A DNA stretch of 64,000 nucleotides. Source: an uncultured Candidatus Actinomarina sp. GTDB taxonomy: Bacteria > Actinomycetota > Acidimicrobiia > Actinomarinales > Actinomarinaceae. The first letter of the stretch is position 1. Each line of letters opens with the position of its first letter. Below the pieces are notes generated by a model, which saw nothing but the letters and a program-made list of their open reading frames with translations, was not told the origin of the DNA and ran no database searches. Positions 35,639 through 57,610 of the stretch are shown piece by piece. The DNA is taken from the NCBI GenBank assembly GCA_902615855.1, contig CACMQN010000002.1, positions 84,054 through 148,053 of the forward strand, written 5' to 3'. The position numbers were made by a program, and so were the translations under genes.

Positions 35639-37114
35639 ATGATTGAAGTGCCAATAAATAGAATAACAACACTTAATGATGATCAACCAAATATGGATGC
35701 TCCTTATGTTCTTTATTGGATGATTGCATTCAGAAGAGTAAATTATAACTTTTCTCTCCAACGTGCAATTGAATGGGCAAACAAACTCTCAAAACCTTTA
35801 CTTATTTTTGAACCTATGACAATTGATTATCCGATGGCAAGCATTAGATTTCACAAATTTGCTATTGAAGGGATGCAAGATATTCAAAAACAAACTGAAA
35901 AATCTAAAGCCTTTTATTTTCCTTATGTTGAAGAAAAAAAAGGGGCTGCTGACAAATTATTAACTGAGTTAGCAAAAAACGCTGCAGTTGTAATTACGGA
36001 TGATTATCCAACTTATTTTGTTCCTCAAATGACAGCAGAAGCAAAGGGGAGTATTCAAACAACATATGAATTGGTTGATTCAAATGGCTTACTTCCAATA
36101 AGAATTGCAGAAAAAGAATATGTACGTGCTCATGATTTTAGAAGATTCATGCACAAAAATATTGAAGACTTTTTAGTTGAAGTCCCTGAGAAAAGTCCTC
36201 TTGAATATCTAAATTTAAAGTTTGATGAAAAATTATTAGAACCAATTTTCAAGAAATATGAACTTGTTGATTTTAATAAAGTTAACACTCGAGACTTTTT
36301 AAATAACTTAAATGTTGATAAATCTGTAGAGATTAGTGATGTTATTGGTGGATATAATGCAGCCAAATCAAGATTGGATCTTTTTGCAAAAAAAGGATTT
36401 AATGATTACTCAAAACTAAGAAGTCATCCTTCAGAAGATGCAAGTAGCCAACTTTCACCATATTTTCATTTTGGACACATTTCAACGTATGAAGTCTTTG
36501 AAAAAATAATTAGTAATGAGTCCTGGTCAGTTGAGAATATCGATCCAAATTTTGTAGGTCGTAGAGAAGGATGGTGGGGTGGATCTGCTAATCTTGAAAG
36601 TTTTTTTGATGAGCTAATCACTTGGAGAGAGCTTGGATATCATACCTGTGTAAAACGAGCAAACTATGACCAATATCAATCTTTACCAGACTGGGCAATT
36701 AAAACACTAGATGATCATGCCAATGATGAAAGAGAATATATCTATGACTTATCAGAATTTACAAACGCTAATACACATGATGAAATTTGGAACGCAGCTC
36801 AAAATCAGTTAAAAACTGAAGGTAGAATTCATAATTATTTAAGAATGTTGTGGGGTAAGAAAATTCTTGAATGGACGCCTAATCCACAAATTGCACTTTC
36901 CTATTTGATAGATTTAAATGATCGTTTTGCCTTAGACGGAAGAGATCCAAATTCATACTCAGGAGTATTTTGGATATTAGGAAGATATGACAGAGCATGG
37001 GGTCCAGAGAGGCCAATTTATGGAAAAATTAGGTATATGACCTCAAAATCTACAGCGACAAAGTTTAATTTGAAACCATATTTAGAAAAATGGTCTGTCG
37101 GATCCACTGTTTAA
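35639..37114 (+). CDS. Deoxyribodipyrimidine photolyase, class II-like
   Basis: YVLYWMIAFRRVNYNFSLQRAIEWA, LRMLWGKKILEWT, LDGRDPNSYSGVFWILGRYDRAWG..GKIRYM. Confidence 0.88.
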   Translation: MIEVPINRITTLNDDQPNMDAPYVLYWMIAFRRVNYNFSLQRAIEWANKLSKPLLIFEPMTIDYPMASIRFHKFAIEGMQDIQKQTEKSKAFYFPYVEEKKGAADKLLTELAKNAAVVITDDYPTYFVPQMTAEAKGSIQTTYELVDSNGLLPIRIAEKEYVRAHDFRRFMHKNIEDFLVEVPEKSPLEYLNLKFDEKLLEPIFKKYELVDFNKVNTRDFLNNLNVDKSVEISDVIGGYNAAKSRLDLFAKKGFNDYSKLRSHPSEDASSQLSPYFHFGHISTYEVFEKIISNESWSVENIDPNFVGRREGWWGGSANLESFFDELITWRELGYHTCVKRANYDQYQSLPDWAIKTLDDHANDEREYIYDLSEFTNANTHDEIWNAAQNQLKTEGRIHNYLRMLWGKKILEWTPNPQIALSYLIDLNDRFALDGRDPNSYSGVFWILGRYDRAWGPERPIYGKIRYMTSKSTATKFNLKPYLEKWSVGSTV

Positions 37115-37243: not shown

Positions 37244-37906
37244 ATGGAAGAACTAACATACCGACTTTTCATGGTGGCAACTGTGGGAATGCTTGCAGGA
37301 ACAGTATTTTTACTTGCTTCATCAAGAGAAGTTAAACCAGAACACAGACGTGGTGTTTATATTTCAGCACTTGTCTGTGGTATTGCATGGTATCACTATC
37401 AAAAGATGGGTGCATCTTGGGAAAGTGGAGCATACGATACAGGGTTAAGATACGTTGACTGGGTCTTAACTGTTCCTTTGATGTTCGTCGAAGTCCTTGC
37501 AGTTACAAGAAAGGGTGCCGCATACAATGAGGCAGTCCGTAACTGGGGAATTGCAGCAACAGTAATGATTGGTGCAGGATACTACGGTGAAACATCAGCA
37601 GCAGGAAGCAACGAATATTGGACAGGTTTCGTAATTGCTATGGCAACTTACGTCTGGCTAATGAGAAATCTTCAAGCTGAAGGAGAAGGTCTTAAAGGTG
37701 ATGAAGCAGCAGCTTTTGAAAATATTAAGAACCTAATCCTTGTAGGTTGGATAATTTATCCTTTGGGATACATTGCACCTGTAGTAGGAGACTTTGATGC
37801 TATTAGAGAAGTTCTATACACAGTCGCTGACATAATTAATAAGGTCGGACTTGGTGTACTAGTACTACAAATGGCTCGAGTTAAGTCAGGAGAAAAAGTT
37901 TCGTAA
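37244..37906 (+). CDS. Proton-pumping microbial rhodopsin (marine actinobacterial type)
   Basis: RYVDWVLTVPLMFVEV helix C (D97/T101/E108 equivalents), ADIINKVGLGVLVLQMAR helix G Schiff-base Lys; SD AAGGAG. Confidence 0.95.
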   Translation: MEELTYRLFMVATVGMLAGTVFLLASSREVKPEHRRGVYISALVCGIAWYHYQKMGASWESGAYDTGLRYVDWVLTVPLMFVEVLAVTRKGAAYNEAVRNWGIAATVMIGAGYYGETSAAGSNEYWTGFVIAMATYVWLMRNLQAEGEGLKGDEAAAFENIKNLILVGWIIYPLGYIAPVVGDFDAIREVLYTVADIINKVGLGVLVLQMARVKSGEKVS

Positions 37907-49834: not shown

Positions 49835-51201
49835 ATAAAAAAGAAACAAGAATAGAAAAAGACTCAATGGGTGAATTTGAAGTACCTATTGATGCTATGT
49901 ATGGTGCTTCAACTGCTAGAGCAATTGAGAATTTTCCAATTTCAGAACTAAAGTTCTCTCGATCATTTATAAGAGCACTTGGTGAAATTAAAAAAGCTTG
50001 TGCAATAGTAAATCAAGATAATAAATTATTAGATAAAAAAATAGCAACTGCAATTATTGATGGTGCTGAAGAAGTAATCTCAGGTAATCATGACAAGGAT
50101 TTTGCAGTTGATATTTTCCAAACTGGATCAGGCACTTCTACAAATATGAATGCTAATGAAATCATTGCAAAAATAGCATCTGATAAAACTGGTGAATCAA
50201 TACATCCAAACGACCATGTAAATATGAGTCAATCATCAAATGATGTAATTCCAACAGCAACAAATGTTGCTGCTGTAATAGATGTTACTGAAGGGCTCAT
50301 TCCTGAATTAGATAATCTTATTTCATTACTTAATGAAAAGGCAAAACAGTGGGAGGAAGTCTATAAAAACGGAAGAACTCATTTAATGGATGCTACACCT
50401 GTTAGTTTAGGTCAAGAATTTTCTGGATATGCTGACCTTATTGATGAAAGAATGGGTGACATTAAAGCCTCTTTAGATAATGTCCAGAAATTAGCAATTG
50501 GAGGTACCGCTGTCGGTACTGGAATAAATGCTCCTGATAATTTTGGGGCTGATGTTGCAAGCGAACTTCAATCATCAATAGGAATACCCTTTAAAGAAGT
50601 AGAAAATCATTTCACAAGACAAGGATCAAGAGAAGAAGTGGTTCATTTATCAAGTGCTTTGAAGGCACTTGCAGTATCGCTTTTTAAGATTGCAAATGAC
50701 ATTAGATGGATGGGTAGTGGACCAGTGTCTGGATTGGGAGATTTGAAAATTCCTGCTTTACAACCAGGATCATCAATAATGCCTGGAAAAGTAAATCCAG
50801 TAATACCTGAAATGATGATGCAGGTATCCGCTCAAGTTATTGGAAATGATACAACCATTACGTTTTCATCAGCCAATGGAAATTTTGAGCTAAATACAAT
50901 GCTTCCTGTAATGGCTCACAACCTACTTGAAAGCATTGCTTTACTCACTACTGGAGTAAATGTGTTTGGGAATAAGCTGATAAAAGACCTTGAAGCAAAT
51001 ACTGAGAAGTTAAATGAAGATACTCAAAAAAACTCAATCCTAGTTACAGCACTTGTACCAAAGCTTGGATATGATGTAGCTGCTGAGGTAGCTAAACAAG
51101 CTATGGAAAATGGATTAACAATAAAAGAAGTATTGCTTAGTAAAGAATTAATGCCAGAGGGTGATATTGATGATCTTTTGGATATAGAGAAGCTTATCTA
51201 A
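49831..51201 (+). CDS. fumC: Class II fumarate hydratase
   Basis: FQTGSGTSTNMNANEI, QPGSSIMPGKVNPVIPE; TTG start. Confidence 0.95.
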   Translation: MNKKETRIEKDSMGEFEVPIDAMYGASTARAIENFPISELKFSRSFIRALGEIKKACAIVNQDNKLLDKKIATAIIDGAEEVISGNHDKDFAVDIFQTGSGTSTNMNANEIIAKIASDKTGESIHPNDHVNMSQSSNDVIPTATNVAAVIDVTEGLIPELDNLISLLNEKAKQWEEVYKNGRTHLMDATPVSLGQEFSGYADLIDERMGDIKASLDNVQKLAIGGTAVGTGINAPDNFGADVASELQSSIGIPFKEVENHFTRQGSREEVVHLSSALKALAVSLFKIANDIRWMGSGPVSGLGDLKIPALQPGSSIMPGKVNPVIPEMMMQVSAQVIGNDTTITFSSANGNFELNTMLPVMAHNLLESIALLTTGVNVFGNKLIKDLEANTEKLNEDTQKNSILVTALVPKLGYDVAAEVAKQAMENGLTIKEVLLSKELMPEGDIDDLLDIEKLI

Positions 51202-51632
51202 TGGTCAATAAAATCGCTATTGCTTCCGATCATGCAGGTTTTGAATTAAAACAATTGTTAATAGAATCTTTATCTTCCGATCTTGAAATTGAAGACTTAG
51301 GAACTGATAGTTTGGAACCTTGTGATTTTCCAGATTATGCAACGAAAGTATCTGATTTTGTCTTGGATAATGAGGGTACAAAGGGAGTTTTAATCTGTGG
51401 GACAGGTGTTGGCATGTCTATTGCAGCAAATAAAGTAAAAGGTATCAGAGCCTCTAATGTCACCAATGTAAAAACCGCTGTTCAATCTGTTGAGCATAAT
51501 GATGTAAATGTTCTATGTCTGGGTTCGGAAAATCTAGATATTGAGGCTGCTCAAGAAATAACTGAGTCATTTTTAAATTCCTCTTTTTTAAACGAGGAAA
51601 AATACATAAATAGAATTAATAAACTTAGCTAA
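51201..51632 (+). CDS. rpiB: Ribose-5-phosphate isomerase B
   Basis: IASDHAGFELK, GVLICGTGVGMSIAANKVKGIRAS. Confidence 0.94.
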   Translation: MVNKIAIASDHAGFELKQLLIESLSSDLEIEDLGTDSLEPCDFPDYATKVSDFVLDNEGTKGVLICGTGVGMSIAANKVKGIRASNVTNVKTAVQSVEHNDVNVLCLGSENLDIEAAQEITESFLNSSFLNEEKYINRINKLS

Positions 51633-52493
51633 TTAAGGTATAAATTTGTTTTTACCTTCAAAAACCTTTGTTCCATTTATATAGCTATAGTATTTTCTAC
51701 ATTCACAGGCTAAATATTCTATATCGATTGGATTAAAAGCTCGTTTTGCTTCAGGCCAGTATGTTTTTTGTAGTTCAATCATTTTTTCACCAACTTCTTG
51801 GTGGGAACTTAAACCAAGATGATTTTGTAATCTATCCAGATAAGCAACAGCACCTATCCCTGTAGGAACCTCACTTTCAATTGGAATAATATCAGGTCTG
51901 AACCAAGCTATATCAATAACTGCCATGAATATTGGAAAATCATTTTGCATTTGAAATTCATTATTTATGTTGTTAGTTGCAGTAATTACACTATTGTTTG
52001 ATGATTCAAGAATATCTAGTATAGAATCTTTAACCTCGTAAAATAATCTAGTTGCAGCATCAATTCTTGAGTATTGTTTACCTCTCCATGTAACTGGTTC
52101 AACTGGATATGCAGTTTCATTACACCATGGATCAATACTTTCTAATTTATTTTTTAAGTCATCAGGATCATCTAAATTTTCGGGCGTTAACGTATCTAAA
52201 ACTTCTTGTCTATTACACCATCTTGCAAAAAATACAGCGTTAATTAGTTTTGATGGATTTTCATCTAAATTACCCGCAAATTTAATAATTGATTTACTAA
52301 CTCGATCATCTTCTCTAAAGACATTCAAGAACCTTCCATTTTGAAAAATTTCATCAGTGCTCCATGGAAAATCTTCACCATTTTCTCTTGAAATTCTTAT
52401 ATTTTCTCGTTCTTTACAGAAATCAAAAAAACTTTTTACCGGATTTTCAATAATGAGTCCATCCAGTGCTGTTGCATATTTATTTTCAATCAT
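51633..52493 (-). CDS. Protein resembling 5-hmdU DNA kinase helical-domain / alpha-glutamyl-putrescinyl-thymine pyrophosphorylase (HMUDK_hel/aGPT-Pplase) family
   Basis: FFDFCKERENIRISRENGEDFPWSTDEIFQNGRFLNVFREDDRVSK; C-terminal IEYLACECRKY. ATG at 52493 avoids a 47-nt overlap with the permease. Confidence 0.65.
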   Translation of the reverse strand: MIENKYATALDGLIIENPVKSFFDFCKERENIRISRENGEDFPWSTDEIFQNGRFLNVFREDDRVSKSIIKFAGNLDENPSKLINAVFFARWCNRQEVLDTLTPENLDDPDDLKNKLESIDPWCNETAYPVEPVTWRGKQYSRIDAATRLFYEVKDSILDILESSNNSVITATNNINNEFQMQNDFPIFMAVIDIAWFRPDIIPIESEVPTGIGAVAYLDRLQNHLGLSSHQEVGEKMIELQKTYWPEAKRAFNPIDIEYLACECRKYYSYINGTKVFEGKNKFIP

Positions 52494-52509
52494 TTTTTCT
52501 ATTTTTAAT

Positions 52510-53433
52510 TTATCTATTTTCTCTAAAAAAAGGTATTCCAATATTTTTTGGAGCACCAGTTCTTCCGCCTTTATATATTGTTAAAATTACCAGAATAAAA
52601 ATTGTAATTATGTATGGAGTAATTTTTACAATATAAGGATTTAAATCAAATCCATATGTTTGTAAACGAGGTACAAGTGCTTCCAAGAAACCAAAAAGTA
52701 GAGCTCCTAGTGCTGTTCTATATGGCTTCCACCCTCCAAATATTACTAATGCTAAAGCTATCCACCCCCTTCCAGACGTCATGTTATCTGTCCAATATGG
52801 AACATAACTAAGAGTTAAATAAACGCCAGATAATCCTGCAAAAGCACCTCCAATACACGTTGCAATAAATTGAGTTCTATTTACCTTTAATCCCATAGAA
52901 TCCGCTGCTTTGGAGTCTTCTCCAACTGCTTGGAGTCTCCGTCCAAATAAGGTATTTTGGAGCAGATAAGAAACTGATATCATCAGTATTAATGCAATAT
53001 AAAAAACTATATTTTGACTCATAAGAACTTCAATAAAATTTGATGGTTCATTGTTATTTGATAAACTTTCAATTTTAACATTTAATTTTTTTCCTCTATA
53101 TTCTTTACCCATCAAAGAAGAAAGTGCCAATCCTAAAATAGTCAGAATTAGTCCTGATACAGTTTGATCCTGCTTCAATAAAACAGTAACGAGAGCATGA
53201 ATAGAAGCAAAGGCAGCAGATGACAAGATTCCTACAATTATTGCAAGATATATATTTTCTGTATTAATTGCAGTCATAAATCCTGAAACAGCCCCTATAG
53301 CTATCATTCCTTCAACACCAAGATTAAGAATTCCAGACTTTTCTGTAATCAATTCACCCAAGGCTGCAATAAACAGTAATGTTGCAGCTTGTAAGGTTGC
53401 ATTTAATAGACCAATTAGTTGAATATCAAGCAT
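52510..53433 (-). CDS. Nucleoside-type ABC transporter permease (NupQ/YufQ-like)
   Basis: EKSGILNLGVEGMIAIGA, IALALVIFGGWKPYRTALGALLFGF. Confidence 0.92.
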   Translation of the reverse strand: MLDIQLIGLLNATLQAATLLFIAALGELITEKSGILNLGVEGMIAIGAVSGFMTAINTENIYLAIIVGILSSAAFASIHALVTVLLKQDQTVSGLILTILGLALSSLMGKEYRGKKLNVKIESLSNNNEPSNFIEVLMSQNIVFYIALILMISVSYLLQNTLFGRRLQAVGEDSKAADSMGLKVNRTQFIATCIGGAFAGLSGVYLTLSYVPYWTDNMTSGRGWIALALVIFGGWKPYRTALGALLFGFLEALVPRLQTYGFDLNPYIVKITPYIITIFILVILTIYKGGRTGAPKNIGIPFFRENR

Positions 53434-54484
53434 TTTCTTTTCTTTTTATTTCGTAATTAAAGAAAAATTGTGAGATCAATGCCCCCATTAAAGTTGATGC
53501 TTGTATGATATCAGCAATGTAGGTACTTACTCCAACTGTTTGTATGACTGAACCACCTATTGAGAGGGCACCGAATAAGCAACCGACTAAAAATATTCCA
53601 ATAGGCCTCATTCCCGTGATAGCAGCGACAATTATTGCAGTGTAACCAAAACCTTGGGAAATTCCTGTTGATAATCTGTGTGTTTGACCTAAAAGCTCAA
53701 TTCCTCCAGCTAATCCAGCAAATCCACCTCCAATTAACATGGCAATGAATGCTTTTTGTTTTGCATTTATGCCTGCATATATAGCAGTCAATTCTGAACC
53801 ACCTGCGATTCTCAACTCATATCCAAATATTGATTTATTTTTTAGATAAAAAGCAATAACTGTAAATGTAATACAAACAATAAAACCAAAACTTAATTTT
53901 CCAAATATCGTTGGTAAATAGACCTCTTCCCCAATATATTCTGCAGCCGGAAAATTTAGAGATCCTGGATCTTTCCACGGGCCATTTATTAGATATATAG
54001 TTATACCTATTGCAATATAATTTGTAAGCAAAGTTGTAATTATTTCATTAACACCAAAAAAAACTTTTGTAATGGCTGGTATGAGTATACAAATTGCTCC
54101 ACCGACAAATCCTGAAATTAATAAAACAAATATCAACATCGTTGAGTTTGTAACTTGAGTATTTATATAAATATAGTTAACTGCTATTGCTCCAAAAAAA
54201 ATTTGACCTTCTGCCCCTATGTTCCAAAACTTTACAGAATTAATTATCGATATACCTAACCCCGCCAAAATTAAAGGAACCGCTTTATTGAGAGAAGATG
54301 TAAAGCTATTTACGCTACCCAAAGACAATCTAAACATTAATGAAAATGTCTCCAATGGATTTTTTTCTTGAATAATTAAAATAATTGTTCCAATCATTAA
54401 CGCTATTACAAACCCAATTAAAAACGAATAAAAAGTACTTAGTTCGCTAACATTCTGTTTTTTGGAAAGAAAGAAATTACCCAT
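53426..54484 (-). CDS. Nucleoside-type ABC transporter permease (NupP/YufP-like)
   Basis: FWNIGAEGQIFFGA, GVNEIITTLLTNYIA, INAKQKAFIAMLIGGGFAGLAGG. Confidence 0.92.
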   Translation of the reverse strand: MGNFFLSKKQNVSELSTFYSFLIGFVIALMIGTIILIIQEKNPLETFSLMFRLSLGSVNSFTSSLNKAVPLILAGLGISIINSVKFWNIGAEGQIFFGAIAVNYIYINTQVTNSTMLIFVLLISGFVGGAICILIPAITKVFFGVNEIITTLLTNYIAIGITIYLINGPWKDPGSLNFPAAEYIGEEVYLPTIFGKLSFGFIVCITFTVIAFYLKNKSIFGYELRIAGGSELTAIYAGINAKQKAFIAMLIGGGFAGLAGGIELLGQTHRLSTGISQGFGYTAIIVAAITGMRPIGIFLVGCLFGALSIGGSVIQTVGVSTYIADIIQASTLMGALISQFFFNYEIKRKENA

Positions 54485-55973
54485 TTATACCAGCCATTGC
54501 CAAGCCAACTTTTGATATATCCATTTCACCTGTTTCAAAAGATTGAATTATTTTCCCTTCAAAGATTACTAATAATCTGTTACTTAATTTGAATAGCTCA
54601 TCAAGATCTTCGGATATGAGGAGTATGGCTGTGCCATTATTTCTTTGTTCAACAAGCAATTGGTGTATTTTATCAACTGAATTTACATCTAATCCTCTTG
54701 TTGGCTGAGATGCCAAAATCACTTCAGGATTTATTGTCAATTCTCGACCCATTAGCAACTTTTGCATATTTCCTCCAGAAAGTGTTGAAATTTCTGCTTT
54801 AGGATTTCCGGATTTTATTGAGAACTTATCTACCAGATTATTTAGGTATTTATTTGTTTTGGATTTTGATAAGTGTAATGCTGTCTTGGTTTTGAAATAC
54901 TCTCTTACCACTGAATTATCGATTACTGATACACCTGGAGCTAAACCGACGCCCAATCTGTTTTCAGGTATATATGCAAAGTTTAATTTTTTTCTTGATT
55001 TTACACCTTCACCAGTGACGTCTTCATTTTTTATTAATACTTTTCCTTCGTAAATTTTATTAATACCACTTATAAGATTTGCTAACTCAACTTGACCATT
55101 ACCTGAAACTCCAGCAATTCCCAAAATTTCACCACCTTGTATTTCAAAATTAATATCTTCTAATATTTTTATGTTTGTCATCGGATCTTTCAAACTTACA
55201 TTTTCTACTTTTAGTTTTATTTCTGAACGAATATTATCTTTTTTAACTGTATATGTAGTAGCTTCTCCCATCATCATCTCCACTAATTCCTTTGTGGAAG
55301 TAGATTTTGAGTCTATAAATTTTGATACCATTTCTCCATTTTTCATCACAAACAATGCCTCAGTAAATTCTTTGATTTCTTTCAATTTATGAGTGATTAT
55401 TACAATCGTTTTCTCATCTTCAATAGCTAATTTTTGTAACGCAATTTTTAATTGCTCAGTTTCTTGAGGTGTTAGAACTGCAGTAGGTTCATCAAGTAAC
55501 ATAATGTCACTGTTGTTAAATATAAGTTTCATTATCTCAATTTTTTGTTTTTCACCAACAGACAGATCAGCGATGATTCTTTTTTTATCTGTGTTTAGAG
55601 AAAAAATATCTGAATATTTTTTGTAAGCATCATCAAAGTTTTTATTGAATATATTTGCTTTAGACAATTTTAGATTATCTTCAATTGTGAATGAATCAAT
55701 TAATCTAAATTCCTGATGAACCATACCAATTCCAAGTGAATATGCAATTTCAGGTGTTAATTTATTTATTTTTCGACTATGTATATTGATAGTTCCGCGA
55801 TCTGGTTGGTAAAGACCAGAAATAATGTTCATTAATGATGTTTTTCCTGCTCCATTTTCTCCTAGAAGACCATGAATAGTGCCTTTTCTAAGATAGAAAT
55901 CAACGTTGTTTAGCGCTTTGGTTTCACCAAAACTTTTGGAAATATTTCGTAGCTCTAAAATATTTTCATTCAT
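54477..55973 (-). CDS. Nucleoside-type ABC transporter ATP-binding protein (tandem NBDs; NupO/YufO-like)
   Basis: GENGAGKTSLMNIISGLYQPDRGTI; second NBD GVSGNGQ...LSGGNMQKLLMGREL. Confidence 0.94.
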   Translation of the reverse strand: MNENILELRNISKSFGETKALNNVDFYLRKGTIHGLLGENGAGKTSLMNIISGLYQPDRGTINIHSRKINKLTPEIAYSLGIGMVHQEFRLIDSFTIEDNLKLSKANIFNKNFDDAYKKYSDIFSLNTDKKRIIADLSVGEKQKIEIMKLIFNNSDIMLLDEPTAVLTPQETEQLKIALQKLAIEDEKTIVIITHKLKEIKEFTEALFVMKNGEMVSKFIDSKSTSTKELVEMMMGEATTYTVKKDNIRSEIKLKVENVSLKDPMTNIKILEDINFEIQGGEILGIAGVSGNGQVELANLISGINKIYEGKVLIKNEDVTGEGVKSRKKLNFAYIPENRLGVGLAPGVSVIDNSVVREYFKTKTALHLSKSKTNKYLNNLVDKFSIKSGNPKAEISTLSGGNMQKLLMGRELTINPEVILASQPTRGLDVNSVDKIHQLLVEQRNNGTAILLISEDLDELFKLSNRLLVIFEGKIIQSFETGEMDISKVGLAMAGING

Positions 55974-56012
55974 AAAAAAAATTACAGCACCTCAAATTTG
56001 AGGTGCTGTAAT
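55974..56012 (-). terminator. Intercistronic terminator-like hairpin between bmpA-like and ATPase genes
   Basis: 32-nt perfect palindrome ATTACAGCACCTCAAA/TTTGAGGTGCTGTAAT (55981-56012); on the minus strand followed by T7 and immediately by the ATG. Confidence 0.88.
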
Positions 56013-56020
56013 ATATACAC

Positions 56021-57049
56021 TTAATCTAACGTACCGATGACATTATCGATAAAATAGGACATTCCTAGAAGGTCACCATCTGATAATCCTTCAAATATAT
56101 CAAAATCACCATTTGTAATCTCATCTTTTCTTTCTTGTATCAACATTGTTGCATACATAGGTACATCACTTGATACCTCGAATAGATCAACAACGTCAGC
56201 TGATAAACCTGCCCAATATGGAGTTGTAGTAAATTCATCATTTAATATGGAATTGACTAAATCTGTATATAATGGTCCCCAGTTCCAAACCGGTGCTGTC
56301 ACAAATGCATTGGGTGCTGCTTCTTTTCCGTAACCAGTATGATAACCAATCCATTTAGCTCCAGCAGCTTCTGCAGCAATACCTGTAGATGCTGAATCTT
56401 GGTGTTGTGTAAGTACATCAGCACCAGTTTCTAATAGAGCATTTGCAGCTTGCGTTTCTTCTTCAGGACCAAACCAAGTATTAGTCCACACAACTTCTAC
56501 TGTGGCGTCTGGATTGACTTCCTTTACTCCTGTTGCAAAGGCATTAATACCTCTAATGACTTCAGGAATTGGAAACGCAGCAACGTAACCAATTTTGTTA
56601 GACTCTGTTATTGCTCCTGCAGCTAATCCAGAAAGATATCTTGGCTCATATATCTTGCCAAAATAATTTGTATAGTTTGAATCATTTGATTTATACCCAG
56701 AACAATGTAAGAAAATGACATCTGGATATTCAAGTGCCATTTCTTCCATGATATCAAGATAGCCAAAAGTTGTTCCAAAGATAATATTGTACCCTTGTTC
56801 AATATAAGCTTCTGCTACTGTTCTAAATTCAGTTGCATCAGGTGGAACATCCTCTGTATATGCTGTCTCGATACCTGTTTGTTCTACAAGATATTGACGA
56901 CCTTCGTCATGAGCTTGTGTCCATCCACCATCATTTGGTGATCCAAGATAAACAAAAGCGGCTTTGTAATCATCTACGGATGCGGCTCCACCGCATGCCA
57001 TAGTAAGAATACTGATAATAAGTAGGCCTACTGCCCAACTTCTACGCAC
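56021..57049 (-). CDS. BMP family (purine nucleoside-binding) lipoprotein
   Basis: Lipoprotein signal ending LTMACGG; GSPNDGGWTQAHDEGRQYL, IIFGTTFGYLDIMEEMA. Confidence 0.92.
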   Translation of the reverse strand: MRRSWAVGLLIISILTMACGGAASVDDYKAAFVYLGSPNDGGWTQAHDEGRQYLVEQTGIETAYTEDVPPDATEFRTVAEAYIEQGYNIIFGTTFGYLDIMEEMALEYPDVIFLHCSGYKSNDSNYTNYFGKIYEPRYLSGLAAGAITESNKIGYVAAFPIPEVIRGINAFATGVKEVNPDATVEVVWTNTWFGPEEETQAANALLETGADVLTQHQDSASTGIAAEAAGAKWIGYHTGYGKEAAPNAFVTAPVWNWGPLYTDLVNSILNDEFTTTPYWAGLSADVVDLFEVSSDVPMYATMLIQERKDEITNGDFDIFEGLSDGDLLGMSYFIDNVIGTLD

Positions 57050-57157
57050 CCTTACCTCCTTTATAATTGCCTTTCGTAAAAAAACTATTATAACAAATTT
57101 ATTAATTATTTATCTACTTGTAGAAAATAGATTTGTTAAAATGAGCACTTATTATTT

Positions 57158-57610
57158 ATGAAAAAACTTTTTTATTCTTGGGATGAACAGTTTGAAGATA
57201 CAAACAAAATTTGCAGTCTTCTTAAAAGTGATGATTTCATTCCAGATGTTGTAGTTGGAATAAGCAGAGGTGGTTTAATTCCAGGTGTAATGATTTCTCA
57301 TAAACTTGATATTCCATTCAAACCAGTACATGCATCAACAAGAGATTTTCCACATTGGGAGAATTATTTACCTAAACCAAAAGATCAAAAAGTTTTAATC
57401 GTAGATGATATCTGTGATAGTGGTGTCACTTTTGAAAAGTTATCAGAGTATATTAAAGATAATATCAATCATGAATGTGATGTAAGATTCGTCTCCCTCT
57501 GGTGGAATAATGAATGTGATTTCAAACCTCATTACTTTATACGTGATTTAGCAAAAGATTCAGAAGAGGTCTGGATTGATTTTCCCCATGAATCTTGGTG
57601 GGAAAGATAA
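57158..57610 (+). CDS. Phosphoribosyltransferase (xanthine/hypoxanthine PRT-like)
   Basis: VVGISRGGLIPGVMISHKLDIPF; PRPP motif VLIVDDICDSGVTFEKL. Confidence 0.88.
   Translation: MKKLFYSWDEQFEDTNKICSLLKSDDFIPDVVVGISRGGLIPGVMISHKLDIPFKPVHASTRDFPHWENYLPKPKDQKVLIVDDICDSGVTFEKLSEYIKDNINHECDVRFVSLWWNNECDFKPHYFIRDLAKDSEEVWIDFPHESWWER

Follow-up and report, generated by a model that had tools for sequence, protein, structure and literature searches.

The helical domain of the 5-hmdU DNA kinases (HMUDK) and the amino acid:DNA transferases belong to one superfamily, which has been described mostly from defence clusters and from phages with hypermodified thymine. In the phage pathway, the 5-hmdU DNA kinase phosphorylates 5-hmdU in DNA and further modification then takes place (PMC6449724); our statements on this chemistry draw on a second study (PMC6457204) as well. 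Here we describe a chromosomal relative of these enzymes (H) from an uncultured Candidatus Actinomarina species. Its gene lies in a stretch of 64,000 nucleotides, which was analysed as a whole and is called the window. The corresponding genome measures 1.07 Mb (82.8% complete) and its order-level relatives are Candidatus Actinomarina genomes.

A sequence-only reading of the window had described H as the last gene of a nucleoside importer operon. The length and end positions of the protein, its conserved motif block and its C-terminal IEYLACECRKY were all exact in this description, and the order of the genes on the same strand as well as the divergent phosphoribosyltransferase (PRTase) gene were found as claimed (Table 1). 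The distance between the permease gene and H had been given as 17 nt and had to be corrected to 16 nt. The absence of a phage context from the window was confirmed. Inspecting another part of the window by eye, we noted a frame resembling photolyases/cryptochromes (35639-37114), which is directly followed by a short, rhodopsin-like one (37244-37906).

Table 1. Features of the window in the neighbourhood of H
Feature	Position	Strand	Remarks
rpiB	51201..51632	+	convergent with H; marks the opposite border of the syntenic region
H, HMUDK_hel-type protein, stand-alone	51633..52493	-	286 aa, kinase domain absent
Permease-H junction, 16 nt	52494..52509	-	deletion point; relatives hold the entire pyr operon here, from pyrR to pyrE
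Importer permease, BPD_transp_2	52510..53433	-	Pfam domain
Importer permease, BPD_transp_2	53426..54484	-	Pfam domain
Importer ATPase, two ABC_tran domains	54477..55973	-	Pfam domain
BMP/PnrA-like substrate-binding lipoprotein	56021..57049	-	pocket W43 T94 F95 E163 W192 H216 D218, like adenine-bound 3s99 and guanine-bound AtzT
Small PRTase, divergent from the lipoprotein gene	57158..57610	+	Pribosyltran E 3e-14

Family membership and predicted fold of H

H is a sole-domain protein, and a P-loop kinase was found neither fused to it (Pfam domain search) nor adjacent to it (neighbour search). The only Pfam match was HMUDK_hel (PF18723; E 3.6e-19, 69.6 bits vs. a cut-off of 25, residues 19-269), and phrog_2396 of the PHROG collection matched H as well (E 7e-22). 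Searches of NCBIfam and PADLOC gave no match, and aGPT-Pplase models were absent from the Pfam matches even to E 10. An alignment was then built from 33 proteins of the H type and 10 canonical helical domains. HMUDK_hel was matched in all 43 members of this alignment, and 18 columns were invariant over the 43 sequences (F55, N57, R60, D63, F89, N94, P130, F186, D194, V209, G212, G214, R251, D257, C263, E264, K267, Y268). Profile-profile comparison of the H group with the canonical group over 238 columns yielded 96.8% (E 2.4e-10). The region of the canonical (R)KHxNHL motif is missing or replaced in H, and thus its substrate recognition may differ from that of the canonical domains. Judged by its sequence, H is a true but divergent HMUDK_hel member.

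For the AlphaFold2 model of H, a pLDDT of 95.1 and a pTM of 0.90 were obtained. When this model was compared by Foldseek with models of phage proteins, the probability was 1.00 for each of the matches named here. The E-values were 1.4e-6 for the 5-hmdU DNA kinase of SP10 and 9e-6 for the PhiW-14 protein, whereas Pplase1 (2e-3) and the amino acid:DNA transferase (0.02) were matched more weakly; the RSL1 model was matched as well (range of the whole set 1e-6 to 2e-2). The structure model of the canonical domain was mediocre (pLDDT 71.6) and the fold searches were run without it. The structure prediction that had been suggested for H thus links it to the phage HMUDK, Pplase1 and amino acid:DNA transferase models. 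Of the earlier assignment to the HMUDK/aGPT group, the superfamily part is borne out by PF18723, the alignment, the fold and the profile-profile comparison, but the aGPT-Pplase profile itself was not recovered. Among solved structures, sequence comparison gave no relative for the H profile and a single insignificant one for the H sequence, and Foldseek gave no significant match in the PDB. The best PDB fold matches were several chains of DUF2419 queuine-salvage enzymes (E 0.26-1.9, probability at most 0.35). A relation of H to the Q_salvage/Qng1 proteins at the profile level was looked for and rejected (hhalign probability 0.1%), and the fold match was non-significant.

Genomic contexts, locus history and distribution

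We counted the contexts of H over the 35 Actinomarinales genomes carrying it. Direct adjacency of importer and H was seen in three of them (the window genome, G038 and G016). A pyr operon ends with H in 14 genomes; in its fullest form, contig permitting, this operon reads importer permease-pyrR-pyrB-pyrC-carA-carB-pyrF-pyrD-like-pyrE-like-H. In the cases read, H starts 1-4 nt past the stop codon of the pyrE-like gene, and this spacing suggests that the two genes are probably translationally coupled. In 18 genomes H follows umuC, with umuD divergent alongside and the start codons of umuD and umuC a few bases apart or overlapping. In the ten umuC-type genomes that were examined for it, the importer-pyr operon lies beside rpiB, ends in pyrE and does not contain H. 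Here, pyrE and rpiB converge within a few bases, and no H remnants were found at this site, where the gap leaves no space for them. In turn, umuC is present without adjacent H in genomes of the other two types. A tree of the flanking genes (short search, one long-branch row) gave one change of the H site and loss of the pyr operon on three branches. The umuC link is limited to one clade and may be incidental.

The window genome carries neither an aspartate/ornithine carbamoyltransferase domain (ATCase) nor carB, and carB is also missing from G038 and G016. In G016, a remnant of the pyrE 3'-end, GACTAAAGCTATTTGGTAAATG, was found between permease and H (compare GATAAAAGCTATTTGGCAAATG in G012). 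The missing genes and this scar indicate that the arrangement in the window is a deletion product, and the adjacency of importer and H results from loss of the intervening pyr operon. Since it occurs in three independent assemblies, it is not an assembly error. The three genomes are probably pyrimidine auxotrophs; their completeness (78-89%) leaves doubt, but the locus itself is contiguous. The genes kept together with the importer are those of the pyr operon, and also the divergent PRTase gene wherever it is visible. The conserved linkage of H to the importer that had been suspected did not hold, and outside the order we found neither an importer nor a pyr link and no neighbour of H that recurs beyond close relatives.

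Several side observations were made at these loci. For G024, G031 and other Actinomarinales we found no full-length carB match; losses of the pyr operon may outnumber the three cases examined. Such repeated loss would contrast with the view that auxotrophies in Actinomarinales are ancestral, which was put forward for amino acids (PMC7771536). The protein in the pyrE slot (L062:9128-9514 and orthologues) comprises about 118-129 aa and gave a weak phosphoribosyltransferase match (E 0.006) and none in NCBIfam; it is either an orotate PRTase of unusually small size or some other enzyme. In G008, an insert of about 7.8 kb (L069:10424-18206) separates H from rpiB. It consists mostly of orphan ORFs, includes one 593-aa AAA/Zot/HerA-like ATPase and resembles a small virus or integrated element.

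Among solved structures, the BMP lipoprotein is most closely related to 3s99 (E 6e-61), in which adenine is modelled, and to AtzT (E 1e-56), which has guanine bound; for thymine, cytosine and uracil, only weak binding to AtzT was reported (PMC6834077). At the AtzT ligand positions the window lipoprotein carries W T F E W H D, which is the pattern of 3s99 except for T instead of S, and the same seven residues were found in ten relatives with all positions readable. A purine nucleobase appears to be the better guess for the ligand, and it would suit the divergent PRTase, whose best NCBIfam relative is a xanthine PRTase below the cut-off. As the closest solved relatives bind the purine bases adenine and guanine, the designation as nucleoside importer in the sequence-only reading is itself not established.

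H is a conserved core gene of Actinomarinales. It is present as a single copy in 35 of 42 genomes of the order, including all eight that are at least 90% complete, and dN/dS values of 0.095-0.187 for close pairs indicate purifying selection. Relatives sharing 51-66% identity were found in Marinimicrobia, Myxococcota/Deltaproteobacteria, Planctomycetota, Verrucomicrobia/Kiritimatiellae, one member of the Chloroflexi and other MAGs. The distribution is patchy in the Marinimicrobia phylum (40 of 245 genomes, one copy broken) and in the Verrucomicrobia phylum (matches in 11 of 390 genomes, six of them full-length H type). The broken copy of the former phylum contains many stops (G719:C2:64603-65437), and a fragment was seen in the latter (G1036:C1:2247410-2247613); these copies indicate that H can be lost. 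In the H gene tree, Marinimicrobia-labelled sequences are intermixed with those of Actinomarinales. This pattern makes transfer of H between marine lineages likely, with mis-binning of MAGs as the alternative. Viral distribution was assessed in an annotated phage set, which contained only weak H relatives, in 16 Pseudomonas phages, one Stenotrophomonas phage and one unassigned phage. Taken together, we hold the statements on family membership and locus history with high confidence.

Partner genes and candidate functions

A genuine HMUDK is recognised by the Thymidylate_kin model through its kinase half (E 2.8e-15). This model matched in 39 Actinomarinales genomes, each of which contains exactly one such gene, presumably tmk. 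We searched 1.43 Mb of sequence around 114 H loci, some of which represent the same genome twice, and found no TS-like, Nmad2, MazG_C, TIR or HMUDK-kinase relatives. Thymidylate_kin was thus searched genome-wide, and TS-like genes in the vicinity of H. In contrast, most of eleven loci that hold a canonical HMUDK_hel gene in the same class have one or more neighbours of these five kinds. In loci from other genomes of this class (L031-L040), thymidylate synthase-like, MazG_C, Nmad2 and ThsB_TIR genes accompany the canonical HMUDK_hel genes, and some include a TS-like protein of 276-312 aa that is barely or not recognised by Pfam. These are candidate modification or defence clusters. The known chemistry of the superfamily needs a phosphorylated base, and since a kinase was not found in the searches described above, the chemistry of H may have changed.

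H represents a chromosomal, stand-alone branch of the HMUDK-helical/amino acid:DNA transferase superfamily that became fixed in Actinomarinales. In the reading that we favour, its pocket would, as in the phage relatives, hold a 5-substituted pyrimidine (5-hydroxymethyl-U, for example, or another thymine derivative), with DNA as the most likely carrier, and H would either transfer something to this base or remove or resolve it. Such a reaction would constitute a housekeeping step of DNA modification or DNA repair, and we give this reading somewhat less than an even chance. RNA or free nucleotides are possible substrates, too. H persists apart from the importer, the pyr operon and a 5-hmdU kinase, and so depends neither on import nor on de novo pyrimidine synthesis or a dedicated kinase. 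The stricter version, in which these free-living, streamlined marine bacteria carry H as a thymine-modifying or thymine-repair core enzyme of their chromosome, appears doubtful. It would mean that the cell's own DNA is modified at some thymines, or is freed of oxidised thymine by a mechanism undescribed in bacteria.

The position of H at the end of the pyr operon can also be read as its function. H would then be an enzyme of the free pyrimidine nucleotide or nucleobase pool that is co-regulated by PyrR and deals with salvaged or damaged (hydroxymethylated) pyrimidines. The final position of H in the 14 genomes, its tight spacing behind the pyrE-like gene in the cases read, the PyrR gene heading the operon and the persistence of H beside the importer after pyr loss are consistent with this idea. 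However, the umuC-type genomes keep their pyr operon without H, and links to pyr or importer genes are lacking outside the order, so that we consider such a function unlikely. The sequence-only reading had suggested that H may process modified nucleosides taken up by the importer. Such a system, with the PRTase taking part, would fit the adjacency to the importer in three genomes, but this adjacency is secondary to the pyr deletion, the umuC-type genomes keep importer and PRTase with no H at the site, and the pocket of the binding protein is of the purine-base type. Thus, a role in import is highly improbable.

Two further explanations were considered. H might excise a modified base as an N-glycosylase-like protein, either a DNA glycosylase or a nucleotide glycosidase of the Qng1 type. 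The recurrence of the DUF2419 enzyme among the best PDB fold matches, a VPTGIGA turn that on inspection resembles a helix-hairpin-helix loop, and the location next to umuC in 18 genomes point in this direction, but the E-values and probabilities of the fold matches and the negative Q_salvage comparison make this function improbable. For a defence function against phages with hypermodified thymine, it can be argued that a 5-hmdU DNA kinase domain has been validated in defence (PMC13092281) and that canonical HMUDK_hel genes of the same class occur beside ThsB_TIR, Nmad2, thymidylate synthase and MazG_C genes. Yet H is a single-copy, conserved gene under purifying selection, PADLOC does not recognise it, and none of the defence models tested matched its neighbours; we regard this function as very unlikely.

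Comparison with described systems

The fold and the family of H are already known. The key primary papers apart, we did not find in the literature a chromosomal, kinase-free branch that is a core gene throughout an order and lies outside modification and defence clusters. That genomes of around 1 Mb keep such a stand-alone core gene speaks for an as yet unassigned housekeeping function. As H is small and its predicted fold is confident, it allows the activity of the domain to be studied apart from the kinase. In addition, the locus illustrates the origin of a misleading operon, since repeated loss of the pyr operon has placed an unrelated gene beside an importer.

With the HMUDK helical domain (PF18723, e.g. 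Bacillus phage SP10), H shares the fold and the elements RFxNxFRxxD, F..N, P, D, VxxGxGA, R, D and CExxKY, but it differs by the lack of the P-loop kinase, by the replaced KHxNHL region and by the absence of TS, MazG_C and Nmad2 neighbours. The amino acid:DNA transferases and alpha-glutamyl- or putrescinyl-thymine pyrophosphorylases of PhiW-14 and related phages resemble H in predicted fold and in being stand-alone domains, whereas H is a chromosomal core gene for which no source of a phosphorylated base was found. With the queuine-salvage enzyme DUF2419 (Qng1), the likeness is limited to the top but non-significant fold match, without a profile relation. Finally, the 5-hmdU kinase/thymidylate synthase defence systems found by DefensePredictor (PMC13092281) have only the related domain name in common with H, which lies outside defence-like clusters and is conserved throughout its order.
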